A stretch of 40,403 nt of DNA from Bacillota bacterium. Its GTDB lineage: Bacteria; Bacillota; Sulfobacillia; JAJZYS01; JAJYTV01. The stretch is taken from NCBI GenBank assembly GCA_021793645.1, contig JAJYSJ010000021.1:1-40403 (forward strand), given 5' to 3'. The translations under genes were made by a program, and so were the position numbers. Below, in pieces: positions 19,303-40,072 of this stretch. The notes beneath the pieces are model-generated. The model saw only the letters and a program-made list of their open reading frames with translations. It did no database searches and was not told the DNA's origin. The stretch's first letter is position 1; each line of letters starts with the position of its first letter.

Positions 19303-20034
19303 GTGCACCCAAATGGGGACGCCTCGTGTACCACGAAAGTTGTGCTGAGCTAGCCGGTGGAGGTCCGGCCACGGTAATGACCAAGCAGCCGTGTAGCTGG
19401 TGGGCGACGGTTGGGGAGACCCAGACGTCGAAGCCCCACGACAAAGTCACCTCGGGTGGCGAGCAAAGCCGCGGTTCGTACGATGAGGAATCCTGCGTAA
19501 GCGTCGAAACCCCATAGGAGCGGGAGCCGAGCCCTTGAAGCGAGGGCGAAGGCCATGCGAGGTGCGAAGACCTTGGAGGCGCAGCACCGACGAACCCGCC
19601 GGCGTAGTGGGATCGGAACGTGGCGACAGTTCAGCACGGAACGTGGGAGATCCGTCTCGGCCCTGCGAGATGTCCTCGGGTAGCCGACCTGAGGTATGTC
19701 AGGAGCAGGCGACGCCTATAACCGTAGATCGGGAAGTGGTGGAGCGCCGAGCGGAGGTCGGAGGAGGCCATACTAGCGAGATCGGCGTGGACAACATAAC
19801 CCGCCGTAGCGAAGGGCCTCCAGCCAGGTGCGCGATCAAACAACGGCCAACGCGGTCAACGCGGAGGAGCCTCGCGGGTCGCTAGGACTAGGCGCCAACA
19901 CCCGTGGCAAGGTGGAATGCGTCTAGTCGACTGCCTGGGGGAGAGCCGTGTGAGGGAGAACCTCAAGCACGGTTCGGAAAGAGGGCATTGGAAACGGGGC
20001 CGTCCTCGGCCGCCGCGCCAGTGCCCTACTTTAC
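19303..20034 (+). mobile_element. ORF-less group II intron
   Basis: A roughly 730-nt structured element without a reverse transcriptase. The 5' end GTGCACCCAAATGGGGACG is a group II start. Blocks such as GAGGAATCCTGCGTAAGCG, CAGCACGGAACGTGGGAGAT and GTAGATCGGGAAGTGGTGGA look like conserved domain I-III sequence. Domain V is clear at 19943-19975 (GAGCCGTGTGAGG, then CCTCAAGCACGGTTC), followed by a domain VI stem (AGGGCATTGG/CCAGTGCCCT) and CCTACTTTAC. It differs in class from the intron at 566, so its maturase would have to come from elsewhere. Confidence 0.75.
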
Positions 20035-23246: not shown

Positions 23247-23257
23247 AGCGTCTTCCG

Positions 23258-23686
23258 TTATCGCTTGGGCTTGTCTGGCGCGCTCCCGAGGGATAGATCC
23301 CGCAAGAGCGCGGAGACTTTTCCCTGGACTTCGATGACCTTCTGGGCCTTCTCCAGTTCCTGATTCAGCCGCGCGTTCTCCCGGCGCAGCCGATTCACCT
23401 CCCCGCTCAGCGGGTCTGCCGGCTTGCGGCCTCGCTTCTGGCCCAGTGCGGCCAGTACGCTCTCTTCACGCTGGCGCCGCCACTTGACCAGGTGCGAGGA
23501 GTACAGCCCTTCGCGTCGCAGCAGTGCCCCGATCTCTCCGGGCGCCTGGCAGCGATCCGCCTCTTCGAGGATCCGTAGCTTGTACTCGGCGGTGAACCGC
23601 CGCCGCTCTGCTCGCGGCACGACTTCGATCTCCCGTTCCGGCCGCTCGCCGTCTCTCTGCTGTACGATGCCCGGTTTGCTCAGCAC
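23258..23686 (-). CDS. IS3-family transposase OrfA
   Basis: About 142 aa from GTG 23686 (AAAGGGAGAG 5 nt upstream); a longer start at 23773 is possible. A helix-turn-helix (RRFTAEYKLRILEEADRC, LLRREGLYSSHLVKWRRQRE) is followed by a leucine-zipper coiled coil (VNRLRRENARLNQELEKAQK). It binds the IS ends and pairs with OrfB. Confidence 0.88.
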   Translation of the reverse strand: MLSKPGIVQQRDGERPEREIEVVPRAERRRFTAEYKLRILEEADRCQAPGEIGALLRREGLYSSHLVKWRRQREESVLAALGQKRGRKPADPLSGEVNRLRRENARLNQELEKAQKVIEVQGKVSALLRDLSLGSAPDKPKR

Positions 23687-23773
23687 GATTACTCTCCCTT
23701 TGGCTCGCCGGCTGCGAGGGGGGCAACCTGACGGTTTCCCCCGACCCCTTCCCTTCTTCGCGATCAAGATCAC

Positions 23774-24792: not shown

Positions 24793-26195
24793 GTGGTGTA
24801 AAGTCGGGCCCCTGCGGTAGGGCTCAATTTACGGCGCTGAGAGCTGGGTTGTTCGCGGCCTCGCTCGCTCGATCGGCGTAGAGCTTCGCCATGGATTCCT
24901 GGGAGAAGTAGCGGCGAGTGGCAGCGGCCCACTCGTCGTTCTGCTCCATCAAGACGGCGCCGACGAGGCGCAAGACCGACGGGCGGTTAGGGAAGATGGC
25001 GACAACGTCGGCGCGCCGACCGATCTCGCGGTTGAGGCGTTCGAGCGGGTTGGTGGAGTGGATCTGGCGCCAATGCTCGCTCGGGAAGCTCATGTAGGCG
25101 AGGACGTCCTCCGAGGAGGTCAGCAGCATCTCGGCCACCTTGGGGAAGCGCGGTCGGAGCGATTCGGCCACCTGCGCCAGTTGGCGCAGGGCGTCCTGCT
25201 TGGTGGGCTGGACGAAGATCGTGCGGATCAGCGCCGCCGTCACCGCCTGGGCCTGCTTCGGCACCTGGCTGAGCAAGTTGCGCATGAAGTGCACTCGACA
25301 CCGCTGCCAACTGGCGCCGACGAGCACGGTCTCGATCGCCTGGCGGAGCCCCTCATGGGCATCGCTGATCGCGAGCTTGACACCCTTGAGACCGCGGCGT
25401 TTGAGGCTGCGCAGGAACTCGGTCCAGAACGGTGCATCCTCGCTCAGGCCGATGTCGCAGCCAAGGATCTCGCGCTCACCGGTGCTGCGCACCCCCGTAG
25501 CCACGACGAGTGCCATGCTTACGACGCGGTCACCTTCACGCACCTTCAGGTACTTGGCATCGAGCCAGATATACGGGTACTCGCCGTCGAGTTGACGCTG
25601 CCGGAAGGCCTCTGCCCGCTCATCGAGCTGCTTTGCTATTCGCGAGACCTCGCTCTTGCTGATGCCGGTCATACCCATCGTCTGGACGAGCTCGTCCACC
25701 TTGCGGGTGCTCACCCCGAGCACGTAGGCCTCCTGGATCACCGATGCCAAGGCCTGTTCGCTGCGCCGGCGTGGCTCCAGGAACCGCGGGAAGTACACTC
25801 CCTTGCGCAGCTTCGGGATCTGCAGCCGCACGGTACCGAGCCGGGTGTTCCAGTCCCTCGGTCGCCTGCCATTGCGGTACGTGGTGCGCTCGTCCGTCCG
25901 CTCGTGGCGCCCGGCTCCGATCTGAGCCGCAACCTCCGCCTCGATCAGGTCCTGCAGAAACGCCTGCAGACCCACGCGCATGAACTCCGGTTGATCGATC
26001 CCCGCGTTGCGCAGCAGCTCAAGCAATGCGATCTTAGACTCAGCCATCATCGGGCATCCCCTGTTGTGTCTGAACAACCACAGGAAACCCGATGGCGGCG
26101 CTTCTTGTCCAGGAAGAACCTGGGGATCGCCAGGGGACTACGTCCCCTGGGACCCCGACCCTTCTCCCGTCAGATCACCCCCTCGTTTACACCAC
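24793..26195 (-). mobile_element. IS256-family insertion sequence
   Basis: Bounded by GTGGTGTAAA at 24793-24802 and its inverted copy TTTACACCAC at 26186-26195, enclosing one transposase gene. No target-site duplication could be recognised at these limits, so the real ends may lie a few bases outside. Confidence 0.75.
24824..26050 (-). CDS. IS256-family transposase
   Basis: About 408 aa with the Transposase_mut fold. DDE residues: D in YIWLDAKYLKVREGDR, D in LAISDAHEGL and the distal E in STNPLERLNREIGRRADVVA. The CRVHFMRNLL motif is also typical. The start at MMAESKIALLELLR (26050) is preferred over the longer MFRHNRG form. Length and motifs are complete, so it should be active. Confidence 0.95.
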   Translation of the reverse strand: MMAESKIALLELLRNAGIDQPEFMRVGLQAFLQDLIEAEVAAQIGAGRHERTDERTTYRNGRRPRDWNTRLGTVRLQIPKLRKGVYFPRFLEPRRRSEQALASVIQEAYVLGVSTRKVDELVQTMGMTGISKSEVSRIAKQLDERAEAFRQRQLDGEYPYIWLDAKYLKVREGDRVVSMALVVATGVRSTGEREILGCDIGLSEDAPFWTEFLRSLKRRGLKGVKLAISDAHEGLRQAIETVLVGASWQRCRVHFMRNLLSQVPKQAQAVTAALIRTIFVQPTKQDALRQLAQVAESLRPRFPKVAEMLLTSSEDVLAYMSFPSEHWRQIHSTNPLERLNREIGRRADVVAIFPNRPSVLRLVGAVLMEQNDEWAAATRRYFSQESMAKLYADRASEAANNPALSAVN

Positions 26196-27177: not shown

Positions 27178-27624
27178 CTACGCGCGATGCCAGACGCTTC
27201 GCATCTCAACACCGGCCGCTGTGAACAGGTTGTGCACGGGGCACCGGTCCTCCACCTGAAGGGCCAACTGCTCGAGTCGTTCTTGCGGCTCGTCCGTCTC
27301 CACCGCGACGTCCAGCTCCACGCGTTGGAAGTGACGCCGTACACCTGGGACACCAAGCATTCCGTCGCGATCGAAGACCCCTTCGGCTGCGAAGGCCAGG
27401 GCACCGTGCTGGAATCCCATAGACTCTGCGACCAAGGGTACTACGACTGCGAGGCAACCAGTGAGGGCGGCCAAGGCGGCTTCCAAAGGGCTGGGTCCCG
27501 ATCCCTCACCACCGGCTGCCGGTGGCTCGTCGGTGCGGAACTTCACTTGCCGCCTCGTCGTGTGTTCGGTCTTGATGCCATACGGTGACCTGCTCTGGAT
27601 CGCAATCTTCAATGTCTGAGCCAC
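27178..27624 (-). CDS. OsmC/Ohr family protein
   Basis: About 148 aa. The OsmC fold has two conserved cysteines, in LAALTGCLAVVV and VEDRCPVHNLF. The family reduces organic hydroperoxides with dithiol partners, or acts on other sulfur compounds. GTG start 15 nt after the selenoprotein stop, the last gene of a minus-strand run (DUF6789-like, lspA, selenoprotein, osmC). The context supports a redox role. Confidence 0.9.
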   Translation of the reverse strand: MAQTLKIAIQSRSPYGIKTEHTTRRQVKFRTDEPPAAGGEGSGPSPLEAALAALTGCLAVVVPLVAESMGFQHGALAFAAEGVFDRDGMLGVPGVRRHFQRVELDVAVETDEPQERLEQLALQVEDRCPVHNLFTAAGVEMRSVWHRA

Positions 27625-27641
27625 ATGATCGCCTACCTATC

Positions 27642-28421
27642 TCAGGTTCTCGTATCCACTTCGACGAGCGAACCGCCCGTTTGAACGTCCTCTATAACTT
27701 GAAGCGCCGCTAGAACGCGCCGTCGCTGAGTAGTCCCATCTCCTGGAGGTCCGGCCGTCTGCCCGCGGGAACCGGGCACGACCAGAGCCCGCGGTAGGAG
27801 GACGCGTTCAGTAAGCTTGCGGTTGATAGAGATCGAGGTCGTTAAGATACCGGCCTGTTCCAAAAAGCGCGCGAGCAGTCCCACGGACTGATGGCACACC
27901 GGTCAGACCGGTACGAGCAGCACCGCATCGACACCGTCTGCTTGGAGCTGCGCCGCGATCTCGGGGGCGGACGTCTCCAGAAACGGTTGGGGATCAGGCT
28001 GGTAGCCCATGAAACTCACGTGGCGAGGGGCAACCCGACCGATCGCTCCCTCATCGGCTAGTTGGCGCACTACATCCAGCGGGAACACGCTGTTGTAGTC
28101 CTGACGGGCTGCGGTCGTGTCGTAATGGGAATGGTGGACATGCCATGACTGCAATGGCCCCGAACTGGCGATCCACCGGAAGCTGGAATCGCCGTATGGG
28201 CTTGCTTCGTCAAACGGAGGCTGTCCGGGGATCACCACACCGCCGGAACTGATCACCGCAATGGCCATATTGCGCAGCGGTTTTGACGGTATGGAGAGCG
28301 GTGCCTCCGTGAACGTGATCCATGGGTAAGTACGGAACGCTTCGCAGTACCTTGCTTCTTGCAGCAGTGGTTCAACCTCGGTTCGCCAGGCGGCGAAGCT
28401 TTGCGACCAATCGGATGGCAA
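27642..28421 (-). CDS. GrdB/PrdB-related selenoprotein with UxxC motif
   Basis: About 259 aa if UGA at 27905-27903 is read as selenocysteine (U173). The frame continues without break: VDAVLLVPV-U-PVCHQSVGLLARFLEQ, giving UxxC with C176. Homologous glycine/sarcosine/betaine/proline reductase B-type proteins have this 'VP(C/U)PVCHQ' site followed by GIxT and PRALVVPGSRGQTAGPP. A hairpin CAGTCC-GTG-GGACTG starts 12 nt after the UGA, with its loop 18 nt away, as in known bacterial SECIS. TTG 28421 start (AAGGAGGG 9 nt upstream). N-terminal part: VISSGGVVIPGQPPFDEASP, FMGYQPDPQ. Substrate unknown. Confidence 0.8.
27876..27890 (-). promoter_or_regulatory. SECIS-like hairpin for the GrdB/PrdB-like gene
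   Basis: A perfect 6-bp stem CAGTCC/GGACTG with a GTG loop, inside the coding frame. The loop begins 18 nt after the UGA; bacterial SECIS elements lie at this distance with a GU in the loop. Confidence 0.65.
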
Positions 28422-28489
28422 GAGATCAAGCCCTCCTTGCGGTCCCACTTTAAAGTACCGACCTCGCCCGCGATTTGGAGATTCTGCTG

Positions 28490-29029
28490 CTACCGCAGCG
28501 GAGGGATGATTCGCCGGCCGGCCGTACCTGAGCCCTCACGCATGGCATCCGGACGCAGCCATGCGACGAGAACCCAAATGGCCCCCACGCGCAACGCGAC
28601 ATCGGCCAAGTTGAACACCGCTGGCCATGGCCATACCTGGAGAAAGTCGGTGACATGGCCAGACGCGAGGCGCGAAAGGACGTTTCCCGCAGCGCCTCCC
28701 AGCATCAAGGCAAGGCCGATTCGGCCACGGGGAATACGCATCACAGCGACGACCAGCCCCAGGACAGCCAGGGCGCCGACCAACAGCCAGAGGAGAGGAA
28801 CCCGTGCGCCGAGCCCGAAGGCGACGCCCGGGTTAGTGATAAGGCGAAGACCGAACCAGGGTTGGACGACCCAGGTCACCACACCTTTGGCGAGTCGACT
28901 GGCTGCCCAAGATTTCGTCGCCCAGTCGACGCCGAGCACGAGGGCAGGCACAGCGAATGCTACCGCCAGATGGCGACGAGTACCGTTGGCGTTTGGGCTA
29001 TGCACGCGCACTGTGAGTCGACGTTTCAA
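28490..29029 (-). CDS. lspA: Lipoprotein signal peptidase (signal peptidase II)
   Basis: About 179 aa, four membrane helices. LspA motifs: VLGVDWATKSWAASRL, LRLITNPGVAFGLGA, MLGGAAGNVLSRLASGHVTD (catalytic Asp in VTDFL) and FNLADVALRVGAIWVL (second catalytic Asp). It removes signal peptides from prolipoproteins. The start (TTG 29029, or GTG 29005) overlaps the end of the upstream membrane gene, so it is co-translated in the same minus-strand run. Confidence 0.95.
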   Translation of the reverse strand: MKRRLTVRVHSPNANGTRRHLAVAFAVPALVLGVDWATKSWAASRLAKGVVTWVVQPWFGLRLITNPGVAFGLGARVPLLWLLVGALAVLGLVVAVMRIPRGRIGLALMLGGAAGNVLSRLASGHVTDFLQVWPWPAVFNLADVALRVGAIWVLVAWLRPDAMREGSGTAGRRIIPPLR

Positions 29030-29477
29030 CAGTTACGCCGCCGTAGATCGCGCCCAGCACGGCTCCGAAGATCAGGTGAGCGACAAGGCTGCCCATGATC
29101 GCTCCAGCGCCCAAGTTGGCGAAGAAGAATCCGGGCGGCATCTTGGCCATCGACGGGTTGAGCATCGGAAGCATCGGCGCCACCATCACCATCATCACGA
29201 TCCACGGTACCAACCCGAAGAGCAGCCCGCGCAGCCAGCCCTGTCCCGGAAGGAATCGGGCGAGCCAGTACACGTACACGAGCGCCAGGATGAGACCGAT
29301 CATCAGATGCATGATCCATCCGAGCGCGATGGAGTTCATGCCGAACATACCGCCCAGCATGGCCGGCACGTTCATGGCAGGCAGTCCCATCAAGGGAGCC
29401 ATGTAGAGCACGACCGTGAACACGACCCAGGCGACGAGGCCAGCAAGCATAGCCCGACCGAAGTCCGGCTTTCTCAT
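28998..29477 (-). CDS. DUF6789-like polytopic membrane protein
   Basis: About 159 aa from ATG 29477 (GGAGGTGTTCCGA upstream). Four helices: AMLAGLVAWVVFTVVLYMAP, ALGWIMHLMIGLILALVYVY, LLFGLVPWIVMMVMVAPMLP, GSLVAHLIFGAVLGAIYGGV, with Met-rich stretches (GLPAMNVPAMLGGMFGMNS). Function unknown. First gene of the run leading to lspA; the promoter region is shared with the divergent glutaredoxin gene at 29574. Confidence 0.7.
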   Translation of the reverse strand: MRKPDFGRAMLAGLVAWVVFTVVLYMAPLMGLPAMNVPAMLGGMFGMNSIALGWIMHLMIGLILALVYVYWLARFLPGQGWLRGLLFGLVPWIVMMVMVAPMLPMLNPSMAKMPPGFFFANLGAGAIMGSLVAHLIFGAVLGAIYGGVTVETSTHSARA

Positions 29478-29573
29478 TCGGAACACCTCCTGGCGGCAGG
29501 ATACCGCCGTGAAGACATGTGTTCCGTAGCGCGCCTTACATTCGGCGACGAGAGGATGTGGTGAACTGATCAC

Positions 29574-29810
29574 ATGGAAGGCAAGAGCGTGACGCTTTAT
29601 GGACATGACTGCTGCCCCGGCACAGTGCGCGCGCGGGAGTACCTGCGCAGGCGCGGTATTCCGTTTGTCGAGCGGGACGTGACACAGCCGGGACCTTTCG
29701 CGGAGATGGTTCGACACGGCTCATACGCGACGCCGTTGCTGGTCTTCGGGGAGTCGCGTATGGTGGGCTTTGACGCGAAGGAGTTTGAGCGCTTGTGGGA
29801 CCAGGCATGA
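29574..29810 (+). CDS. Glutaredoxin-like protein
   Basis: About 78 aa. Thioredoxin fold: VTLYGHDCCPGTVRAREYLR, GIPFVERDVTQ, SYATPLLVFGESRMVGFDAK, where ATP is the cis-Pro loop. The active site reads CCPG rather than CxxC, so a monothiol or atypical mechanism is likely. Probably handles thiol disulfides or metals in the redox cluster. Confidence 0.85.
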   Translation: MEGKSVTLYGHDCCPGTVRAREYLRRRGIPFVERDVTQPGPFAEMVRHGSYATPLLVFGESRMVGFDAKEFERLWDQA

Positions 29811-29855
29811 TGGATTGGCTGGTCGAGCGCTGAACACGGACGGGATGTGCGACGC

Positions 29856-30149
29856 ATGATCGAACCCCTGACGCGCTATCGCTTGCGCACCATGGCAGGC
29901 GAGATCGACGTCGGGCTCTTACGGTTTATCAGCTCCAGAGACATCATCCGGACTTCCGTGTACACAGCTTTGGTTGTGGGAACGATCCTCACGCTCATCA
30001 ACCAGGGCGACATCTACTTGGCGGATCACGTAACAGGCATTGTACTCGTCAAAACCCTGCTAACTTACGTTGTGCCATATTGCGTTTCAATTTTTGGGGC
30101 CATGTCCGCTGCTCGGGTGCGACGGACGACCGACGACGCCACCCGGTAG
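29856..30149 (+). CDS. nrtS: NrtS-like small membrane protein
   Basis: About 97 aa with two membrane helices: SVYTALVVGTILTLINQGDI and VLVKTLLTYVVPYCVSIFGA. This matches the short NrtS family, reported as nitrate/nitrite transporters. ATG 29856 is preferred to GTG 29847. The Crp/Fnr regulator gene follows at once and may belong to the same transcript. Confidence 0.7.
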   Translation: MIEPLTRYRLRTMAGEIDVGLLRFISSRDIIRTSVYTALVVGTILTLINQGDIYLADHVTGIVLVKTLLTYVVPYCVSIFGAMSAARVRRTTDDATR

Positions 30150-30175
30150 ACCTAGATTGGAAGGGGGCAACCCGA

Positions 30176-30871
30176 GTGGAGGATGAGAAGCTAAAGTACC
30201 TCTCACGGATCAACATATTCTCGGACCTTGACAAGGACACGCTGCAAAAGTTGGACAAGATAACTCCCATGGTCACGGTGCCGCGCGGAGCAGTAATCAC
30301 AAGCCCCGGCGACGTGGACTCCGTCCTCTACCTTCTGAAGCGTGGGCGCGTTCGACTCTACAAAACGACGCCGGACGGGAGCGAGATCACACTTGCCATG
30401 CTTGGCGACGGGAACGTCTTCGGGGCAACCGGCTCGCTCGGCCTTGGCAATCCCGACATGTATGCTGAAGCCATACAGAGCTCTCTCGTCTGCGCCATGC
30501 GCGAGGAGGACGTCGCAAGCCTCATCCAGAGGAACCCTGCGGTCGGGATGCGGCTGATCTCGCTCCTCAGCCAACGCGTACGCGAACTGGAAGAACAGGT
30601 CGAAAGTCTTTCACACCAGGACGTGGAAGGCAGGGTTCTGCGTCTGCTGGTGCATCTCGCGGATGATTTCGGCGTGGCCGACAGAGGATACACTCGCCTC
30701 GATGTACCGCTAACACATGAGGAGATTGCCACGATGGTCGGGTCGACGCGAGAGACCGTCACCACGACCTTGTCGCACTTAGGACGGCTGGGGCTTGTTC
30801 GCACGGGAAGGCGCGAGATCGCCATCAACAGGGAGCGCGTCACAGAGTGGCTGAACGCGAAGAGCAATTAG
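30176..30871 (+). CDS. Crp/Fnr family transcriptional regulator
   Basis: About 231 aa. It has a cyclic-nucleotide-binding-type beta barrel (YLSRINIFSDLDKDTLQKLD, VITSPGDVDSVLYLLKRGRV, MLGDGNVFGATGSLGLGNPD), a dimer helix (LISLLSQRVRELEEQVESLS) and a winged helix (LTHEEIATMVGSTRETVTTT). No cysteine cluster is present at the N terminus, so it is not an FNR-type iron-sulfur sensor. GTG 30176 with AAGGGGG upstream. A palindrome TGTAAG-N4-CTTACA starts 9 nt after its stop. Confidence 0.92.
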   Translation: MEDEKLKYLSRINIFSDLDKDTLQKLDKITPMVTVPRGAVITSPGDVDSVLYLLKRGRVRLYKTTPDGSEITLAMLGDGNVFGATGSLGLGNPDMYAEAIQSSLVCAMREEDVASLIQRNPAVGMRLISLLSQRVRELEEQVESLSHQDVEGRVLRLLVHLADDFGVADRGYTRLDVPLTHEEIATMVGSTRETVTTTLSHLGRLGLVRTGRREIAINRERVTEWLNAKSN

Positions 30872-30879
30872 TTCGGACA

Positions 30880-30895
30880 TGTAAGCGCCCTTACA
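30880..30895. promoter_or_regulatory. Putative Crp/Fnr-type operator
   Basis: A perfect inverted repeat TGTAAG-CGCC-CTTACA, size and symmetry like Crp/Fnr-family sites. It sits between the regulator and the SEC-C gene, so it may control the latter. Binding is inferred. Confidence 0.45.
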
Positions 30896-30942
30896 GTTCT
30901 TCTGATGCCGACGGCGCACGATCGACAGGGAGGTGTTAGAGC

Positions 30943-31089
30943 ATGAGCGAGCACGAGCACCAGCATGTTGACTTCGGCGCCGCCTGTCCCTGCGGGTCCG
31001 GCAAGACCTACGGGGAGTGCTGTGGCGCAAACGAAGCCTGTGGCTGCGGGTCAGGCAAGCAGTACAAGGAGTGCTGCGGAGCCAAGTAG
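30943..31089 (+). CDS. SEC-C mini-protein (two zinc motifs)
   Basis: 48 aa, almost only two SEC-C motifs: CPCGSGKTYGECCGA and CGCGSGKQYKECCGAK. The SEC-C motif (CxCxSG...CC) is a zinc-binding unit known from SecA, where it contacts SecB and ribosomes. ATG with GGGAGGTGTTAGAGC upstream. A paralogue is encoded at 40111-40236. Confidence 0.8.
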   Translation: MSEHEHQHVDFGAACPCGSGKTYGECCGANEACGCGSGKQYKECCGAK

Positions 31090-31231
31090 CACGCCAGCCG
31101 GCAGACGCGGAGTGTGAGCCAAGCCGCGTCTGCCGGCATGATTAAACGCCTGAGTCGGCGCCGCGTTGTGATGCGGCCCCATTGGCTCGCATTCGGTCGC
31201 CGCAGAGGACTACGAAAGGGGGCGCGGCCGC

Positions 31232-31995
31232 GTGGTGAGACCATACGCCTCTTATCACGGCATTCCGATCCCCTGCGTGGACGCGCACGAAATGCGGCGT
31301 ATCGACCAGATCATGGCGGATGACTACGGCATCGGTCTCGCGCAGATGGCGGAGAGCGCAGGGCCGGCACTGGCCGCACTGGCGCTTCGTATGTTGCGGG
31401 GCTGCAAGGGCCTGCCGGTGGTCGTGCTGGCCGGCAAGGGCGGAAACGGCAGTGGCGCCCTGGTGGCCGCGAGGCGGCTTGCAGCGTGGGGCTTCACGGT
31501 GCAGGTCGTCCTGTCGGAGGCAGGTCTCGCGGAGCCCTCCCGAACGCTCAGGGCGACGCTGGACAGCATGGATATCCCCGTTACCGCCTACGCGGCATCA
31601 GACGGCCAGCGCGTCGAGGAAGAGATCGGGAGCGCGCGCTCGTCATCGATGGGCTCGTCGGGTACAGCCTGCAGGGCGTCCCCCACGGGAGTGTCGCTGA
31701 GCTTATCCGACTCACGCATGAGACTGCGCGCGTCCTGTCGCTGGATGTGCCCTCTGGCCTGGACCCCACGACTGGCGTGCCGCGGGACCCGGCGGTACGG
31801 GCAGAGGCGACGCTGACAATCGCACTGCCCAAATCAGGACTACTCCGTCCGGCGGCGGGGGCGCATGTCGGCCGACTCTACCTGGCGGATATCGGGGTGC
31901 CTGCCGAGGCGTATTCCCGTCTCGGCATCGAGGTACCGCAGATCTTCGATGGACGGGCTTTCCTCCGCATCACTGGGGGATCGGCGTTCCCGTGA
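31232..31995 (+). pseudogene. nnrE: NAD(P)HX epimerase (YjeF_N type), frameshifted
   Basis: Epimerase that repairs hydrated NAD(P)H. Frame 1: VDAHEMRRIDQIMADDYGIG, LAQMAESAGPALAALAL, VVVLAGKGGNGSGALVAARR. At a GC repeat near 31635 homology moves to a second frame: ALVIDGLVGYSLQGVPHGSV, LDVPSGLDPTTGVPRDPAVR, ATLTIALPKSGLLRPAAGAH, and ends at TGA 31995. The catalytic Asp lies in LVIDGLVG, after the break. The kinase domain often fused to it (NnrD) is absent. Either a slip in sequencing or a recent mutation. Confidence 0.8.
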
Positions 31996-32028
31996 CGGGC
32001 ATCGGATTCGGAAGAGCACAGGCCAGCT

Positions 32029-32532
32029 TCATTCGGCGCCCCAACAAGGTTCCAGTTCCACGCCCAGTCCGAGTGCGATTCGGTTCACGTAGTTGAAGTA
32101 GGCGACGACCTGGGCCGCATCGTGCACCGCTCGCGCGTCCAGGCCGGCCGCACGCAGATCGGCGACGAGCCTCTCGCATTGGCCATGGCCCAGCACGGTG
32201 AGTTCTCTGCTGAAGCGGACGAGTGCCCGCAGACGCTCACTCGCCGCAATCGGGACCTCACCGCTGGCCAGCCTGTCGACCAGCGCAGGTTCGCCACCCT
32301 CGACACGGAGAGCCTCCCCGTGATGGCGCACTCAGTAATGACAAGAGTTTGCGGCGGACACGGCGACTGCCATCGCCTCTCGTTCGAGACGCGTGAGCGG
32401 CGAGGGGGCAAACATCACGGCGCGGTACAAAGAGACATGCGCCCTCGCCGCGTCCGAACTCCAACCGCAGATGCGGAGAATGTGGTCTGCCTCGGACAGT
32501 GGACCATCTGTGGGATAGGGTATGTAGGCCAA
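32029..32532 (-). CDS. AhpD-like peroxidase-related selenoprotein (CxxU)
   Basis: About 167 aa if UGA 32334-32332 is decoded. The AhpD/carboxymuconolactone decarboxylase motif normally reads SAANxCHYCxxHHG; here it is VSAANSCHY-U-VRHHGEALR (C64, U67), with UGA replacing the second Cys. The rest matches: PLTRLEREAMAVAVSAAN, DAAQVVAYFNYVNRIALGLG. A stem (CACGGGGA/TCTCCGTG, one wobble) begins 9 nt after the UGA. TTG 32532 is chosen because AGGAGGGA lies 4-5 nt upstream. CxxU would act in peroxide reduction. Confidence 0.82.
32304..32322 (-). promoter_or_regulatory. SECIS-like hairpin for the AhpD-like gene
   Basis: An 8-bp stem (CACGGGGA pairing with TCTCCGTG) with a 3-nt loop, 9 nt after the UGA; loop at 17-18 nt, within the bacterial SECIS range. 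Confidence 0.55.
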
Positions 32533-32736
32533 GGTATCCCTCCTGTATGGGCTCAAGCGTAGTCTTGCGTCGTGTGCTACGGAATCCCTGTCAAAGGGAA
32601 GCGCTCGCCTCCTGTACGATGGACACGACGCCTCAATTGTAAGCCGCGCTACTGTGCAGTTTTCCGTAGAACATCATGCTCAACAGAGCGGCGATGACCG
32701 CTGCTGCACCATTCCTTTGAGGGGGTTCGAGCGACC

Positions 32737-32982
32737 ATGATGACGCTGTACCAAATCGAGGGATGCCCTTACTGTCACATGGTACGGCAGAAGCTCTCGG
32801 ATATGGAACTGACGTACGTTTCCGTCTGCGTCTCGCCGGATCGCAGTCGCAGGCAGAAGGTGTTGGAGGCGTCTGGTCAGCCAACGGTGCCTGTGCTCGT
32901 CGACGGAGACGTGGTGCTGGCTGACGAGAACGAGATCATCGCGTACCTCGCGAAGACCTACGGTGGGGTGCAGCGCGCTTGA
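32737..32982 (+). CDS. Glutaredoxin family protein
   Basis: About 81 aa. Dithiol active site CPYC in LYQIEGCPYCHMVRQKLSDM, cis-Pro in GQPTVPVLVDGDVVLADENE, and IIAYLAKTYG at the end. Close to the N-terminal domain of glutathione transferases. GAGGGGG upstream of the ATG. A strong hairpin lies 19 nt after the stop. Confidence 0.9.
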   Translation: MMTLYQIEGCPYCHMVRQKLSDMELTYVSVCVSPDRSRRQKVLEASGQPTVPVLVDGDVVLADENEIIAYLAKTYGGVQRA

Positions 32983-33001
32983 TTTGCACCTTGCACGACT
33001 C

Positions 33002-33042
33002 GCGGTGGAAGCGACCACCAAACCGGCGGTCGCTTCCACCGC
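33002..33042. terminator. Strong hairpin, possible two-way terminator
   Basis: A 15-bp perfect stem (33002-33016 with 33028-33042) with an 11-nt loop lies between the convergent glutaredoxin and peroxiredoxin runs. No T-run follows, so the call rests on position and stem strength. Confidence 0.5.
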
Positions 33043-33065
33043 CTTGCTCGAAGAGTCGTTATCAC

Positions 33066-33216
33066 CGAGGAGCTGCTGAAGCCTACCCCGATCGAAGCCG
33101 ATGACGACTTCACGCCCAGCGTCGGTCTCGACGACGGTCGTCGGTGTCGCATGCGAACCCAGGCGTTGGAGGTCTTGGATCCAGCCCTGCTGATCCGCGA
33201 TATTCCGGTCCTGCAT
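33066..33216 (-). pseudogene. Glutaredoxin/NrdH-like C-terminal fragment
   Basis: RNIADQQGWIQDLQRLGSHA followed by TPTTVVETDAGREVVIGFDR and GRLQQLLG matches the second half of NrdH-like glutaredoxins (TPT cis-Pro, GFD motif). The N-terminal half with the CxxC is not found in this frame. It lies just after the peroxiredoxin-like stop. Confidence 0.4.
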
Positions 33217-33233
33217 CTGAGGATGCTCGGGTC

Positions 33234-33790
33234 TCAGAGCACTGCGGGTAGACGGTGGAGTATTTCCTCCGCGCTGGGTCGGTCGGCAGGAGTTCGGCTA
33301 TCGTGGGCCATCTGAATCCGTTCCTGCGGCGTAACGAGGAAGTCGCCGCCCATTTGCAACAGATCATCGCCGAGAAGTGGCCGGTGAATCACTTCTCCAT
33401 GATGCCAAGCCTGCACGTAGCGCCAAAGTGCCATGGGATGGAACGCCTGCCTCCACGGGGCCCGCTGGAGTCCATACAGGCGATACACCTCGCGCTGCGG
33501 ATCACCGAGCACCGGGAATTTCAGGTCGTGCGCCTTTCGAAATGCAGCGAGATCCGGAATCGCGAGAAAGGTGATGAGGACGATTTCACACTGTCTGTCG
33601 CGGAACGGCTGCTCGAAGTGGCGGAACTCCGCCACATGCTCAAGGCACGGCACTCAGTGGCGATGGCGCAGGAAGATCAGCAGGCGCCATTTGCCCGCCT
33701 CCTTCGCAAGGGAGTACGGCTGGCCCGCGTGATCTGGAAGGGTGAAACGAGGCGCCAGATGGGTGCAAGCCGGCCGCCCAAATCCTTCAT
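33234..33790 (-). CDS. Peroxiredoxin-like (AhpC/TSA_2) selenoprotein with UxxC
   Basis: The peroxiredoxin frame LAPRFTLPDHAGQPYSLAKE, AGKWRLLIFLRHRH reaches UGA at 33656-33654 and continues VPCLEHVAEFRHFE, where family members carry CxxC, so the site reads U-V-P-C. Downstream: LGDPQREVYRLYGLQRAPWR, GGDFLVTPQERI. A hairpin GTGGCGG-AGTT-CCGCCAC begins 18 nt after the UGA with GU in the loop. The 5' end is unclear: a good start (ATG 33790 after GGAGG, MKDLGGRLAP) is one frame off, implying an indel near 33758 or a CTG start there. Likely reduces peroxides. Confidence 0.72.
33618..33635 (-). promoter_or_regulatory. SECIS-like hairpin for the peroxiredoxin-like gene
   Basis: A perfect 7-bp stem GTGGCGG/CCGCCAC with an AGTT loop; the loop begins 25 nt after the UGA, inside the range for bacterial SECIS elements. 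Confidence 0.6.
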
Positions 33791-33824: not shown

Positions 33825-34613
33825 CTAGACGCGTACGGCCGTGATCTGGCAGTAACCCAGGTCTCCTTGATCGATCATTCGCCCGATCGACTCCATGAGG
33901 TCTCGAGCGCTGTCGGCAGTCCAGGCTGCGACGGCGGCGTCAGCAGCTCGGAACGAGAGCCATGCGACAAGGGCGCTGCCCACGCGATTCACGAGGTTCT
34001 TGAGATCCCCCGATCGATCTTCACAGGTTGTGATACGAAACCCGTGCCCTTCAAGCAGATCCCGACAGCCGTCAATGGATCTGGCTCCAGAAAGGCATCC
34101 GACCCAGCCTGCGAGGTTGTTCAGGTCCTGCGGAAGGGCGCCTCGCCGGGTGACATCACTGAGCCCGACTCGTCCTCCGGGTCGCAGTACTCGCAGCCAA
34201 TCTCGAACGGCGTTCTCGGCAGATGGGAAGGTGCAAAGGGAGCACTCGCAGACGACCGCATCGACACTCCGATCCTCAAGCGGCAGAGATTCGGCGTCTC
34301 CCCTGCGAAACGTTATCAGATCGCTAAGTCCGTGGTTCTCGGTCAGTGTCTGCGCCCGTGCGATCTGGGCCTCCCCATAATCCACACCTGCCACCCGGCA
34401 CCCGAAGGTTTGCGCCAGGAGCCTAGCTGTTGCTCCCAAGCCGGATGCGACATCCACCACTGTATCTCGGGGTGTCAGCTCCAGCGATTGCCCCAAGCGC
34501 TTTGAGAGCACTGGTCCGCCGGGGTGCCAGTACTCCCCTAGAATGAGCTCGACCAGAGGGTTGCCGTACGCGATCGCGCAGCAACTCTTCAACGTGTCGC
34601 TGTCGGCCTTCAC
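33825..34613 (-). CDS. SAM-dependent methyltransferase, ArsM-like type
   Basis: About 262 aa, class I methyltransferase. SAM motif I DTVVDVASGLGATARLLAQT, acidic motif II VAGVDYGEAQ, RRGDAESLPL, VVCECSLCTF (motif IV) and LRVLRPGGRVGLSDVTRRG. N-terminal SCCAIAYGNPLVELILGEYW, HPGGPVLSKRLG. Cysteines (SCC, CECSLC, CLS) recall arsenite methyltransferase relatives, but the substrate cannot be assigned. GTG 34613 overlaps the radical SAM stop (GTGA), so both are co-translated. Last gene of a three-gene operon. Confidence 0.8.
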   Translation of the reverse strand: MKADSDTLKSCCAIAYGNPLVELILGEYWHPGGPVLSKRLGQSLELTPRDTVVDVASGLGATARLLAQTFGCRVAGVDYGEAQIARAQTLTENHGLSDLITFRRGDAESLPLEDRSVDAVVCECSLCTFPSAENAVRDWLRVLRPGGRVGLSDVTRRGALPQDLNNLAGWVGCLSGARSIDGCRDLLEGHGFRITTCEDRSGDLKNLVNRVGSALVAWLSFRAADAAVAAWTADSARDLMESIGRMIDQGDLGYCQITAVRV

Positions 34614-36064
34614 TTGTGGACTCTCTGAAGGTTGAATCGCATCTGTCCTTCGCGCCCTGCGCGGCGCCATGCGGCTATTTGCGTTCGCGCCTGCTCGCGG
34701 TACCCGACCGTGTTGTAGGCACAGAACGGGATCTGGCGGCCATCCGGCAGAAGAACCGCCTTGCAGCATTTCATGACGTTCTTCTGTGTGAACGTCCAGG
34801 GGTCCAGGAAGTCCTGCAACATGATCATGAACAGGTTGTCCGCGGCAGAACCGAGATCCTGGGGCCCGGTGATCCCGCACGCCGTGCACGCCTGCAACAC
34901 GTCCTCACCGAAGGCCGGTGTGCCTGGGACCGCAGCGGATGACCACAAACGTTCGAGGGCTCCTCGCACCTCCTCCTTGTCAGGGAGCACTCTATTCGCG
35001 ATGTAGTCCAGGTACTGTTCCATGTCGATCAGTCGCGCGATCGGAAGGACCTCCGACCCGCTGACGAACGCATAGCTCACGGAGTTGCACGTGGGAAAGC
35101 AGCACGGCACGGGAATGAAGTCGGTGCTTAAGAACTGACCGTGCGTCTGCTCGGCAATGCTCTGGATCACATCAGGTATCGTGATCCGCTCCAAAGGATC
35201 GTGGGTCAGATGCCGCCCAGAGTGGAAGGCCGGCTGAAAGTTGATGCCGCGCACCGCTGGGTGCGCGAGGCCGAACTCCACTATGCGGCCCACTTCGTGT
35301 AGATTGACCCCGCGTTCGATCGCCGGCACGAGGATCACGCTCAGTCCCGCTTCGGCCAAGCGATCGAGGGCCCGCAGCTTGACTGGCAGAAGATCCGGCT
35401 CTCCCCGAAGTGCTTCGCACGTCCCCGGTTCAAACCCGTCAAACTGGAAGTAGAGCGACGGACCTAGTGCGGCGATCTCCGCGAGGAACTCGTCGTCTGA
35501 GGCCAGCCGCTTGCCGTTCGTGTTGATCATCACATGACGGACGTTGCGTGCTTGGGCAGCCTCGATCATGGACAAAAGCTGCGGATGGATGGTCGGCTCG
35601 CCTCCGGAAAACTGGACGACCTCTGGTTGCCCTTCAGTCTCCACTAGGTGGTCAAGAATGCCTTCGACTTCCGCCAGAGTGAGACTGAAACCCGCTCCGG
35701 CATTGGCGAAGCAGAGCGGGCAGTCCATGTTGCACGCGGTGTTCACCTCAATGATCCCGACGCAGATGTGCTGGGCATGATCTAGGCACAGGCCGCAGTC
35801 GGCTGGACAGCCGTGGTTGATCGCGGTGGAGTGCTGGAGTGGGACCGTTCCCGGTTTGTTGAAACGCCCTGCGCTGACGTACGCCTCGGCATCGCCGTAG
35901 ATCCTCGCCTCGAAGAGGCCGTGTTCGGGGCATCGCTTCCGCAGGTAGACTTGGTTGTCGCGCAAGAGGATCTTTGCGTCGATGCTGCGTCGGCACTCAG
36001 GGCAGATGCTGCGGGTGAGTTCGTAGAACACCTCTCCGCTCGATGGCGCCCCCTGGATGGTCAT
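34610..36064 (-). CDS. Radical SAM enzyme, MJ0619/Tes-like family
   Basis: About 484 aa. An N-terminal zinc-ribbon-like stretch (SICPECRRSIDAKIL, KRCPEHGLFEARIYGD) is followed by HGCPADCGLCLDHAQHICVG, then the radical SAM cluster site CNMDCPLCF (C111, C115, C118) and VQFSGGEPTIHP. The C terminus is Cys-rich (VPCCFPTCNS, VMKCCKAVLLPD, IPFCAYNTVG). The HGCPxxCGLC arrangement is that of the MJ0619 group, whose members methylate or join unactivated carbons (tetraether lipid synthase is a relative). ATG with AAGGAGGTATCTC; it overlaps the thioredoxin-like stop (ATGA). Confidence 0.88.
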   Translation of the reverse strand: MTIQGAPSSGEVFYELTRSICPECRRSIDAKILLRDNQVYLRKRCPEHGLFEARIYGDAEAYVSAGRFNKPGTVPLQHSTAINHGCPADCGLCLDHAQHICVGIIEVNTACNMDCPLCFANAGAGFSLTLAEVEGILDHLVETEGQPEVVQFSGGEPTIHPQLLSMIEAAQARNVRHVMINTNGKRLASDDEFLAEIAALGPSLYFQFDGFEPGTCEALRGEPDLLPVKLRALDRLAEAGLSVILVPAIERGVNLHEVGRIVEFGLAHPAVRGINFQPAFHSGRHLTHDPLERITIPDVIQSIAEQTHGQFLSTDFIPVPCCFPTCNSVSYAFVSGSEVLPIARLIDMEQYLDYIANRVLPDKEEVRGALERLWSSAAVPGTPAFGEDVLQACTACGITGPQDLGSAADNLFMIMLQDFLDPWTFTQKNVMKCCKAVLLPDGRQIPFCAYNTVGYREQARTQIAAWRRAGREGQMRFNLQRVHK

Positions 36065-36381
36065 GAGATACCTCCTTGAGGGATGCGTTCTTTGGCAAGG
36101 ACCCCCCGCAAGAAGTTCGTGAGATCTGGAGCGCTTGGCACTACTCCCTGGCTGTAGACCTTGCCGTCGATCAGGACCACCGGAGGGTGATGGGCGCCTT
36201 GAGGCAGGACCTCGTGCAGATGTGTGAGCCAAGGTTTGATGGTTAGCACATCGTCGCAAAGTCCAACCTGTTCGCATGCCTGTCGCACAGCGGCGATCGT
36301 GAGATCACACTCATGGCAAACCCAGTCGGGAACGCGCAACCAGCCCTGCTGGCCGGTGATGCGGTAGACAACGATTTGCAC
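36061..36381 (-). CDS. Thioredoxin/glutaredoxin-like CxxC protein
   Basis: About 106 aa from GTG 36381 (AAGGAGGGG 5 nt upstream). WVCHECDLT gives C22-H-E-C25 as a redox or metal site, with VGLCDDVLTIKPWLTHLHEV and HHPPVVLIDGKVYSQG as the later strands (cis-Pro in HPPV). First gene of the operon, overlapping the radical SAM start by ATGA. It may feed electrons to, or deliver a metal or sulfur to, the next two enzymes. Confidence 0.75.
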   Translation of the reverse strand: MQIVVYRITGQQGWLRVPDWVCHECDLTIAAVRQACEQVGLCDDVLTIKPWLTHLHEVLPQGAHHPPVVLIDGKVYSQGVVPSAPDLTNFLRGVLAKERIPQGGIS

Positions 36382-36952: not shown

Positions 36953-36984
36953 TGACCTTGCAGCATAGGGGAAGGTGTACTGTG
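36953..36984 (+). promoter_or_regulatory. MerR-type promoter/operator upstream of the regulator
   Basis: TTGACC at 36953-36958 and TACTGT at 36979-36984 are 20 nt apart, the long spacer of MerR-activated promoters, with the imperfect dyad ACCTTGCAG...GGGGAAGGT between them. It resembles copper/zinc-responsive MerR operators. Confidence 0.7.
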
Positions 36985-37004
36985 GTGGTCGAGGGGGACT
37001 CCAA

Positions 37005-37436
37005 ATGAGGACGAGTGTGCTGTCACGGAGCCTGCATATCGGACAACTTGCCGAGTGGATCGGGGTGAGCGCACGGACAATACGCTTCTACGAGAGCCAG
37101 GGCGTCCTGCCAGAACCTCAGCGGGATTCCGCCGGCTATCGTACGTATGGTGAACGCGATCTGGAGCGTCTGCGCTTTCTGCTGCGCGCCAAGGACGTGG
37201 GCCTGAGCCTTCCGGAGATCCGCGAGATCATTGCGCTTCGCGACGGAGGCGAGGAGCCCTGCGATCGCGTCCGCAGCCTACTCGATGAGAAGATCGCCCG
37301 TGTGCGGTCTCAGATCGAAGCCCTTCAGGCCATGGAGCAGGAACTCATCGCCTTGCGCTATGCCCCACCCCAGATTGTGCAGGACACCGCATGCTATTGC
37401 GGGATCCTCGAGCAGAGCCTGGCGTCCAAGACCTGA
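37005..37436 (+). CDS. MerR-family heavy-metal regulator
   Basis: About 143 aa. Winged helix LHIGQLAEWIGVSARTIRFY, ESQGVLPEPQRDSAGYRTYG, then the long dimer helix. Candidate metal ligands are C in EEPCDRV at the start of that helix and the pair in DTACYCGILEQ near the C terminus, the layout of ZntR/CadR/PbrR (Zn, Cd, Pb) rather than CueR. ATG 37005 with GAGGGGG upstream. It should activate the promoters at 36953 and 37518. Confidence 0.88.
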   Translation: MRTSVLSRSLHIGQLAEWIGVSARTIRFYESQGVLPEPQRDSAGYRTYGERDLERLRFLLRAKDVGLSLPEIREIIALRDGGEEPCDRVRSLLDEKIARVRSQIEALQAMEQELIALRYAPPQIVQDTACYCGILEQSLASKT

Positions 37437-37517
37437 AGTTAGCCGAGCAGTAGCCCCCAACAAGGTTCGCCTTCCGACGCGGTGACGAAGGAGACGTCCT
37501 GACGCACGCTCTTGCCC

Positions 37518-37549
37518 TTGACCTTCCACTCGCGTGAAAGGTTTAAGGT
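37518..37549 (+). promoter_or_regulatory. MerR-controlled promoter of the metal-export operon
   Basis: TTGACC (37518-37523), a 20-nt spacer, TAAGGT (37544-37549). In the spacer lies the dyad ACCTTCCAC-TCGC-GTGAAAGGT (37521-37542), one mismatch per arm pair. It stands 60 nt before the HMA gene and matches the upstream site in ACCTT/AAGGT half-sites. Confidence 0.78.
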
Positions 37550-37610
37550 CGGCGCGAGGGGCGATTTTGGATATCTACCCTCGTCCACTGAGTGTTGGGG
37601 GGAGACAATC

Positions 37611-37844
37611 ATGACCGAGAAGTGCGTGTTCGTCGTCGTCGGTGAGGAGACGATTCACTGCGAGAGCTGCGAGGCCCGCGTAGGCAATGCCTTGCGGCGC
37701 TTGTCTGGCGTGAAGGCGGCAGAGGCGAGCCACCGGACGCAGGAAGTGCGCGTCCAGTTCGATCCTGGGAAGACGTCCAGAGAAGCGATCCGTGAACGGC
37801 TCGAGGAACTGGGCTACGAAGTGCGCGCAGGAGAAGTGTCGTGA
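37611..37844 (+). CDS. HMA-domain metallochaperone-like protein
   Basis: About 77 aa, one ferredoxin-like heavy-metal-associated domain: ETIHCESCEARVGNALRRLS (CxxC) with VQFDPGKTSREAIRERLEEL, GYEV. Would bind soft metals and pass them to the ATPase. ATG start; the last codons overlap the ATPase start (GTGAGC at 37841), so the two are co-translated. Confidence 0.88.
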   Translation: MTEKCVFVVVGEETIHCESCEARVGNALRRLSGVKAAEASHRTQEVRVQFDPGKTSREAIRERLEELGYEVRAGEVS

Positions 37845-40072
37845 GCGCGGAGCGGCTGCAGCTCAAGATCGGTGGGATGGCCTGCTCCTTTTGCGCTGCC
37901 AGCATCACCAAGGGGCTTGGTCGGATGCCTGGCGTGCATGGCGCGAGCGTATCGCTCGCGCACGAGGAGGCGCTCATCGAGTACGACTCGGACCTTGTGA
38001 CCGAGGAGAGGCTCCGGCAGACACTCCTCGACCTCGGCTACACGATCCGCGACCCGCGCCGGGTGAAGGCGTACGAGGAGCAGCAGAAGGAGATTGACCT
38101 TCAAAAGGGCCGACTCATCCTGGCTGCAGTGTTTACTGGGATCTCGCTGGTCGAGATGGCCCTCATGTGGTCCGGTCTCGTACCGAAGCTGGTGCTGCAG
38201 CCCGTCCTGGCGGTCACCATGCCGCTCCTTGCGTTGCTCACCATCTTCGTTCCGGGCCTCTACGTCCTACGTATGGCGTGGCACTCTGTGCGACGTGGCA
38301 TCCTGAACCAGCACGTGCTACTCGAGTTCGGCGCTTTCAGCGGCCTCCTGGGTGGCGCGCTCGGGCTGGTCGGTCAGTACGGGCATATTGCGTCTTTGCG
38401 CTTTCCCGCGCCGGACTTCTTCGCCGTCGCCACCTTCATCACGACCTACCACATCCTCTCCGGCTACGCCTCGCTGCTCGTGCGCACAAAGGCGTCCCGC
38501 TCGGTGATGAAGCTCCTCGAACTCCAGCCGGCGATGGCCACGGTGATCCGCGCCGGCGTGGAGCAGGAGGTATCAGTGGAAGAGGTGCGCGTCGGCGAGC
38601 GCGTGCGCATCCGGCCGGGTGCGTCCATCCCCCTTGACGGACGCGTGTTGCAGGGCGCCTCTGGCGTAGACGAGAGCCTCGTGACGGGGGAGTCCCTGCC
38701 CGTCGACAAGGCGGCGGGCGCTGAAGTGATCGGCGGATCCGTGAACCTCACCGGCTCCCTGATCGTCGAGGTCACCCGCGTGGGCGATGAGAGCTTTCTC
38801 CAGCAGGTGGCGCGCCAGATCGAGGAGGCGCGGGCGCGCAAGCCCGGCATCCTACAGCTCGTCGACCGGGTGCTGGCCGTTTACGTTCCCGGCGTACTCA
38901 CTGCCGCCGCGCTGACGATCCTGATCTGGACGCTCGGTGCCTACCTCGCCACGGGACACGTCGAGATCGCGCGCGGCGTCTTTGCCATGCTGGCCGTCTT
39001 CGTCATGGGCTACCCGTGCGCGCTCGGGATGGCGACGCCGCTCGCGATGATCCGAGGTGGCGGTATGGCAGCCGAGCACGGCATCCTGATCCGCAGTGGA
39101 GAGGCATTTGAGGGCCTCAAGGATATCCGGCGCGTGGCCTTCGACAAGACCGGCACCCTCACGGAGGGTCGTCCGTCCGTCACACAGGTGGTACCGCTCC
39201 GGGACGCCACCGAACAAGATACGCTGCGGCTGGCGGCGTCCGCTGAGGCGCCGTCTGAACACCCGCTGGCCCAGGCTATCGTGCGGCGCGCCGATGCCGA
39301 ACGCCTTGACCGTCTTGATGTTCGGGACTTCGAAGCGATTCCGGGGAAGGGCGTTCGGGCTACCCTCGAAGGAGGACGGCTTTTGGTGGGCTCGCCGCGC
39401 CTGCTGAGGGAGGAGGGTATCGATCTCAGGTCGCTGCTACCCCGCGTCGACGCGCTGCAGGACGCTGGCAACACCGTGGTTGTGGCGGCGGAAGACGGGC
39501 TTCCGGTCGGGCTCATTGCCATCGCGGATACGATCAAGGCTGATGCGCGGGAAGCTGTGGCCCGCATGCGGGCTCAAGGAGTCGAGCCCATCATGCTCAC
39601 CGGCGACAACGAGCGGACGGCCAGGGCCGTGGCGCAGGCGGTCGGCATCTCGGAGTTCCGGGCGGAGGTGCTGCCGGAGGAGAAGGCGATGGAGATCCGG
39701 CGCCTCCAGGCGGGCGGGCGGCGCGTGATGATGGTCGGCGACGGCATCAACGACGGCCCCGCCCTGACACAGGCCGACGTCGGCGTCGCGATCGGCGCGG
39801 GCACCGACATCGCGATCGAGTCGGCCGACGTCGTGCTCATGGGTGAGCGGCTCGCGGCGGTAGCCGATGCGATGGAGATCGGCCGCAGTTCCTACCGCAA
39901 GACGGTCCAGAACATCACGCTCGCCTTCGCCTTCAACGGTGTCGGCATCCCCCTCGCCATGACGGGGCTGGTCGCTCCGATCTGGGCGATGCTAGCGATG
40001 GTGGTAAGCGTGAGTACGGTGCTTGCAAACTCGTTTCTTGGCATGCGATGGGTTGACACATTGCAACATTGA
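37841..40072 (+). CDS. P1B-type heavy-metal efflux ATPase with a YPC motif
   Basis: About 743 aa. N-terminal HMA domain (GGMACSFCAASITKGLG), eight membrane helices, actuator TGES (SLVTGESLPVD), phosphorylation site D435 in FDKTGTLTEG, SEHPLAQAI (HP motif) and GDGINDGPAL. The helix-6 site reads YPC (391-393, GYPCALGMATPLA) where copper and zinc pumps have CPC. The later helices keep AFNGVGIP and MVVSVSTVLANSF rather than the Cu-type YN...MxxSS. Metal therefore unassigned. Expressed with the HMA gene from the MerR promoter. Confidence 0.93.
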   Translation: MSAERLQLKIGGMACSFCAASITKGLGRMPGVHGASVSLAHEEALIEYDSDLVTEERLRQTLLDLGYTIRDPRRVKAYEEQQKEIDLQKGRLILAAVFTGISLVEMALMWSGLVPKLVLQPVLAVTMPLLALLTIFVPGLYVLRMAWHSVRRGILNQHVLLEFGAFSGLLGGALGLVGQYGHIASLRFPAPDFFAVATFITTYHILSGYASLLVRTKASRSVMKLLELQPAMATVIRAGVEQEVSVEEVRVGERVRIRPGASIPLDGRVLQGASGVDESLVTGESLPVDKAAGAEVIGGSVNLTGSLIVEVTRVGDESFLQQVARQIEEARARKPGILQLVDRVLAVYVPGVLTAAALTILIWTLGAYLATGHVEIARGVFAMLAVFVMGYPCALGMATPLAMIRGGGMAAEHGILIRSGEAFEGLKDIRRVAFDKTGTLTEGRPSVTQVVPLRDATEQDTLRLAASAEAPSEHPLAQAIVRRADAERLDRLDVRDFEAIPGKGVRATLEGGRLLVGSPRLLREEGIDLRSLLPRVDALQDAGNTVVVAAEDGLPVGLIAIADTIKADAREAVARMRAQGVEPIMLTGDNERTARAVAQAVGISEFRAEVLPEEKAMEIRRLQAGGRRVMMVGDGINDGPALTQADVGVAIGAGTDIAIESADVVLMGERLAAVADAMEIGRSSYRKTVQNITLAFAFNGVGIPLAMTGLVAPIWAMLAMVVSVSTVLANSFLGMRWVDTLQH

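Follow-up and report, generated by a model that had tools for sequence, protein, structure and literature searches.

Three probable selenoprotein genes from different redox families on a contig of a Sulfobacillus-type Bacillota genome

Three UGA-containing genes and their described relatives

Selenoproteins of the PrdB, AhpD-like and peroxiredoxin (Prx)-like types are abundant in marine metagenomes, in which one Prx-like/AhpD-like neighbour pair was found (PMC2398784), and all three families are already catalogued as selenoproteins (PMC13188914; PMC9312934). Clusters of several selenoprotein genes, such as Tso and SAO, have been described (PMC13188914), and Sulfobacillus has selenocysteine (Sec) formate dehydrogenases (PMC4378227). 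Here, we describe an entire contig of 40,403 bases (JAJYSJ010000021.1, hereafter the window) from a metagenome-assembled genome (MAG; 3.4 Mb, 94 contigs, 96% complete) of a class that takes in Sulfobacillus-type Bacillota. Three minus-strand genes of the window, one PrdB-like, one AhpD-type and one Prx-like, contain an in-frame UGA at the position of a redox cysteine (Table 1; TGA is read as U in the translations). In all likelihood, these are genuine selenoprotein genes in which UGA would be read as Sec, and their products would belong to an accessory redox and metal-stress neighbourhood. Standard annotation stops genes at UGA, so that such proteins are missed or halved.

For all three read-through products, the NCBIfam and Pfam matches spanned the UGA, with family sequence continuing downstream. 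The original prediction for this locus had placed three UGAs at redox positions of minus-strand genes, each followed in frame by family-conserved sequence; all three lay where it had placed them, and the family matches bear out the second part.

The PrdB-like protein shares the UxxC motif at the Sec position and the family profile with the D-proline reductase PrdB/GrdB family (TIGR04483, PF07355). It scored 61 bits against the Pfam GRDB superfamily (PF07355), above the gathering score of 22, and TIGR04483, the PrdB equivalog, was its best curated match, at 124.1 bits. These matches would favour a D-proline or glycine reductase subunit of amino-acid metabolism. However, the TIGR04483 score is far below the cut-off of 300, and the neighbours differ from those of the described family, being Prx, TrsS-like, AhpD-type or metal genes. 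The genome gave no match to the PrdA/GrdE-type partner (PF09338), in a search for which the control genomes gave none either and which thus had no positive control. Because of the low score and the missing partner match, a role other than proline reduction is favoured, and we consider a reductase subunit very improbable. The AlphaFold model of the PrdB-like protein was confident, with a predicted local distance difference test score (pLDDT) of 91, and showed an alpha/beta fold in which the Sec sits at the N-terminal end of a helix preceded by a strand. A Foldseek search with the model returned one match below 1e-3 (template modelling score 0.30), so that no solved structure stands out, and the best VIA hit, a short-chain dehydrogenase with a Z of 7.9, was within the noise range. 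A sequence search of the PDB chains with this protein gave no match.

The AhpD-type protein scored above the curated cut-off of the peroxidase-related family TIGR01926 (113.1 bits; cut-off 81.8). As read from the translation, CHYU occupies residues 74–77, and E62 and H81 are placed as in AhpD; a Glu and a His beside CxxC or CxxU are the residues that AhpD needs. With its CxxU motif, and with solved AhpD-fold structures in the PDB that have Cys at the Sec position, the protein shows no fundamental difference from the described AhpD-like selenoprotein (PMC13188914), except that in some Bacillota its gene forms a pair with that of a PrdB-like selenoprotein. The Prx-like protein matched the SelL-related redox proteins (NF040769, PF00578), which carry UxxC or UxxU, with 151.6 bits for NF040769 (cut-off 120), and has UxxC. 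It differs from the described members in that its gene adjoins trsS-like and trsM-like genes in relatives, and its start is frameshifted in the window. Like the Tso and SAO clusters, the window holds several selenoprotein genes in one neighbourhood, but the gene set is another one, the genes are split by plus-strand genes, and the PrdB-like gene is tied to the mercuric reductase MerA in relatives.

Table 1. Coordinates of the selenoprotein gene candidates, their hairpins and neighbouring genes in the window (Sec, selenocysteine; SD, Shine-Dalgarno sequence; SECIS, selenocysteine insertion sequence)
Feature	Position	Strand	Remarks
PrdB-like selenoprotein gene candidate (UPVC)	27642..28421	-	TTG start 28421 after SD AAGGAGGG; alternative GTG 28448
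Probable Sec UGA, PrdB-like gene	27903..27905	-	motif VPVUPVCHQS
Probable SECIS hairpin, PrdB-like gene, CAGUCC-GUG-GGACUG	27876..27890	-	loop 18 nt past UGA; covariation in 22 homologues
AhpD-type peroxidase-related selenoprotein gene candidate (CHYU)	32029..32532	-	TTG start 32532 after SD AGGAGGG
Probable Sec UGA, AhpD-type gene	32332..32334	-	motif SCHYUVRHH
Probable SECIS hairpin, AhpD-type gene, 7 pairs	32305..32321	-	loop 17 nt past UGA; covariation, weaker
SelL-related Prx-like selenoprotein gene candidate (UVPC)	33234..33790	-	ATG 33790 one base out of frame with body
Probable Sec UGA, Prx-like gene	33654..33656	-	motif RHRHUVPCLEH
Probable SECIS hairpin, Prx-like gene, GUGGCGG-AGUU-CCGCCAC	33618..33635	-	loop 25 nt past UGA; covariation
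OsmC-like protein, Cys form	27178..27624	-	profile matches
Glutaredoxin-like protein, Cys form	29574..29810	+	profile match
CRP-type regulator	30080..30871	+	recurrent neighbour in relatives
Glutaredoxin-like protein (CPYC)	32737..32982	+	profile matches
Glutaredoxin-like gene fragment	33079..33279	-	N-terminal half missing; homologue in L062 with UGA in YTQPGUNAC
TrsM-like (DVU_1556-like) methyltransferase	33825..34613	-	GTG start overlaps trsS-like stop
TrsS/Tes-related radical SAM protein, Cys form	34610..36064	-	profile match
Thioredoxin-like small protein (WVCHECDLT)	36061..36381	-	conserved upstream of trsS-like gene
MerR-family metal regulator (CadR/PbrR-like, below cut-off)	36975..37436	+	profile match; homologues near PrdB-like genes
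HMA metal-binding protein	37512..37844	+	profile match
Heavy-metal P-type ATPase (YPC motif)	37841..40072	+	homologues in relatives

Conserved UGA codons, decoding genes and probable SECIS hairpins

Many homologues with 35–50% identity kept the UGA at the same redox codon. For the PrdB-like gene, the majority of the matches in 150 relatives had TGA at the identical codon, including about 20 homologues in the class; close relatives belonged to Sulfobacillus harzensis and to MAGs named 'Bacillota bacterium'. PrdB-like homologues in Proteobacteria and desulfobacteria had Cys instead of Sec. In two PrdB-like proteins of a single family (L040 and L044), Ser replaced Sec or Cys (SPLCHQT). The eight strong homologues of the AhpD-type gene, found elsewhere in the phylum, had one TGA each; the motif was alignable in seven of them, and in all seven the TGA fell at CxxU. 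The Prx-like homologues had UxxC or UxxU (the latter in L055 and L058), and a distant one (L059) had CxxC. Two further loci (L086 and L087, equal to L107 and L108) contained two tandem Prx-like genes with a UGA at the redox position (SSGUASC; HLGULLC or HLGUMLG).

The genes selA, selB, selC and selD were all present in the genome, above the cut-offs, and ARAGORN identified a tRNA-SeC with the anticodon TCA. SelD is itself a selenoprotein, with UGA in an ASGUGCK motif, and two further PrdB-like paralogues with UGA were located on other contigs. SelB and Sec-tRNA(Sec) would thus be expected to read the three UGAs of the window as Sec, as in established biology. A global reassignment of UGA was rejected, since the codon also serves as a normal stop in several genes of the window, among them the AhpD-type, Prx-like, MerR and P-type ATPase genes. 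A codon-usage scan of the window for further Sec genes missed even the three known ones and was uninformative.

A bacterial SECIS hairpin is expected 16–37 nt after the UGA, with a G within the first two loop bases; in the PrdB-like, AhpD-type and Prx-like genes, hairpins with the loops GUG, GGC and AGUU lie 18, 17 and 25 nt after it, respectively. A loose bacterial SECIS filter was passed by 71 of 100 random TGAs of the window. Hairpin energy was therefore rejected as evidence, most random TGAs of this GC-rich sequence passing; synonymous tests on the three single genes were mixed (P 0.007 to 0.16). The strong evidence is instead the compensatory covariation of homologous hairpins. In 22 PrdB-like sequences, the stem was mostly CAGUCC/GGACUG, with a three-base loop at a constant 18 nt after the UGA. 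Four sequences had CAA instead of CAG, and all four had UUG instead of CUG on the opposite side; in L048, three neighbouring pairs changed together. Double changes occurred in three of the six pairs, none of 500 shuffles reached the covariation score, and the consensus fold was better than all 300 synonymous column shuffles. In nine Prx-like sequences, the seven-pair stem (loop 25 nt after the UGA, containing AGUU or AGGU) had compensatory changes in six pairs, 98% of its cells were paired, and no shuffle reached its score. The AhpD-type signal, with the loop 17 nt after the UGA, was consistent though weaker. Controls in which the stem partner was slid collapsed for all three hairpin families. 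The hairpins are thus very probably real bacterial SECIS elements, to judge from the aligned sequences. The original prediction had noted a hairpin after each UGA, which proves little without the covariation, and had proposed searching for selA to selD and for Cys/Sec pairs among homologues; the genes and the pairs were both found. Covarying hairpins in all three families offer a reliable means to find and decode such genes.

Gene neighbourhoods and possible functions

The three selenoprotein gene candidates are not one transcription unit, because plus-strand genes (glutaredoxin, yjeF, SEC-C, CRP, NrtS and a second glutaredoxin) intervene; the ahpD-type, prdB-like and OsmC genes are on the minus strand, as is a block of thioredoxin-like, trsS, trsM and prx genes and a glutaredoxin fragment. 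The same kinds of genes, dispersed in the window, are found in three relatives in the orders glutaredoxin (U), thioredoxin-like, trsS-like, trsM-like, prx (UxxU), prdB-like (UxxC), HAD, merA (L062); NrtS, glutaredoxin, CRP, thioredoxin-like, trsS, trsM, prx (UxxC) (L100); and trsS, trsM, prx (L058). The TrsS-like protein of the window had NF045646 (TrsS radical S-adenosylmethionine (SAM) (seleno)protein) as its best family, although below the cut-off (325 bits; 490), and the TrsM-like protein was likewise below that of NF045667 (DVU_1556 family methyltransferase; 144.7 bits; 155). TrsS-like genes with at least 68% identity occurred in just 3 of the 150 relatives, and prx adjoined trsM in 3/3. 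The same genus had no TrsS-like match at that identity, and the TrsS-like protein of the window shares 78% identity with one from a different family; this distribution pattern suggests that the trsS-like gene may have been transferred horizontally. A search of viral contigs for the Prx-like gene gave nothing, and a plasmid search gave distant homologues only.

A pair of PrdB-like and AhpD-like Sec genes was present in three relatives (L095, L096 and L098), suggesting that the two are functionally linked in distant Bacillota. In L095, the pair has a chromate-transporter-like gene (ChrA-like, judged by eye) upstream and a metal P-type ATPase gene downstream.

In four genomes (G135, G137, G128 and G073), merA was located within 3 kb of a close PrdB-like gene. 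These genomes are related, but each, at about 3.5 Mb, has no more than one or two MerA, so that chance is an unlikely reason for such proximity. In L064 and L106, a MerR/HMA/P-type ATPase set lay near the PrdB-like gene and was homologous to the set at 36975–40072 of the window. The P-type ATPase of the window has an unusual YPC in place of CPC, and its close homologue adjoins the PrdB-like gene in L106. No such metal genes were found at the inspected PrdB-like loci outside this subfamily (L066–L074 and L103–L105). In five of these (L070–L074; Burkholderiales and other Proteobacteria), a glutaredoxin-like gene directly followed a Cys-type PrdB-like gene, and L069 had a similar glutaredoxin-like match after its PrdB-like gene. 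A literature search for a link between PrdB-like selenoproteins and MerA returned two general reviews only; it did not cover two papers by Haft and co-workers that may be relevant, and we make no claim that such a link is new. The protein families themselves are not new; what is freshest in these results is their association with genes for mercury and heavy-metal resistance, and this recurrent neighbourhood is a concrete, testable lead on stand-alone PrdB-like selenoproteins outside amino-acid fermentation.

We would expect the AhpD-type protein (CxxU) to reduce peroxides or disulfides and the SelL-related one (UxxC) to act as a thiol/selenol oxidoreductase, and the selenolate of the PrdB-like protein may act on some electrophile. 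The original prediction had combined the three proteins with OsmC and the glutaredoxin-like proteins into a selenium-based peroxide-defence region. This held in so far as the AhpD-type, Prx-like and OsmC proteins belong to peroxidase-type families and lie side by side with glutaredoxins, and a Sec peroxiredoxin of Sulfobacillus was upregulated on arsenopyrite ore (PMC7409299). However, the PrdB-like family is not one of peroxidases, and in relatives the genes keep company with those of a radical SAM enzyme and a methyltransferase, and with merA or MerR/HMA/P-type ATPase genes. Given also the intervening plus-strand genes, we consider a true peroxide-defence operon, with every member reducing peroxides, unlikely. 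Since relatives of the PrdB-like protein are encoded near MerA or MerR/HMA/ATPase genes, we consider a role in heavy-metal or oxidative detoxification more likely for it than one in amino-acid reduction. One could go further and envisage a selenium-dependent module of heavy-metal or organometal detoxification in the Sulfobacillus class, composed of the stand-alone PrdB-like protein, the TrsS-like protein, an ArsM-like methyltransferase, the SelL- and AhpD-type proteins and MerA or the metal ATPase, in which the selenolate would attack or transfer the metal; this proposal is speculative and, in our view, rather doubtful.

Several observations speak against three working selenoprotein genes with a role in redox and metal stress. 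The assembled Prx-like gene lacks a start codon in frame with its body. The covariation of the AhpD-type hairpin is modest (eight sequences, 2/7 pairs compensated, score reached by 10 of 500 shuffles), and the covariation counts ignore the relatedness of the sequences. Eight Cys/Ser PrdB-like homologues also folded below most shuffles (P 0.01), which makes this control imperfect, although their consensus fold differs from that of the Sec sequences and shows no excess single-sequence stability (P 0.27). The contig, being part of a MAG, could be misbinned; its GC content is 0.64, with 0.61 in the surroundings of the PrdB-like gene and about 0.66 in those of selA, selB and selD. The window's own genome had no MerA at the threshold used, and the functional assignment is drawn from family membership and neighbours.

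Lesions and mobile elements in the window

The original prediction had started the Prx-like gene at ATG 33790, which lies 134 bases from the UGA and therefore in another frame. In the frame of the UGA, no ATG, GTG or TTG occurred after the preceding stop codon. This ATG is preceded by the Shine-Dalgarno sequence GGAGG, and its frame reads MKDLGGRLA, resembling the GGRLA start of a homologue (L056). Because this start sits one base off the Sec frame, the Prx-like gene has a one-base indel just past its start, through assembly error or mutation. Two further lesions are close by: the glutaredoxin-like fragment (Table 1), and yjeF (NAD(P)H-hydrate epimerase, YjeF_N; 31232–31995, plus strand), which is frameshifted near 31600 with its N- and C-terminal halves in different frames. 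With these beside the start indel, the Prx-like gene may be decaying in this strain.

Such decay or assembly error nearby would also fit a reading in which the three UGAs really terminate translation or arose by mutation in pseudogenes, the similarity beyond them being a relic. Yet UGA is kept at the same redox codon in many of the divergent homologues, the downstream sequence is intact, the hairpins covary and the Sec machinery is present, so that a relic is barely credible. In L062, the homologue of the glutaredoxin-like fragment (5081–5332, plus strand), upstream of the trsS-like gene, is an additional selenoprotein candidate.

ARAGORN reported a tRNA-Thr at 25165–25247 (plus strand), possibly a false positive, within a transposase-like open reading frame (24824–26077). 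Mobile elements, comprising group II intron domains, HEARO RNA and transposase-like genes, were noted at 651–947, 8967–9194, 19351–20034, 22260–23773 and 24824–26077, and the contig is rich in such elements in its left half.

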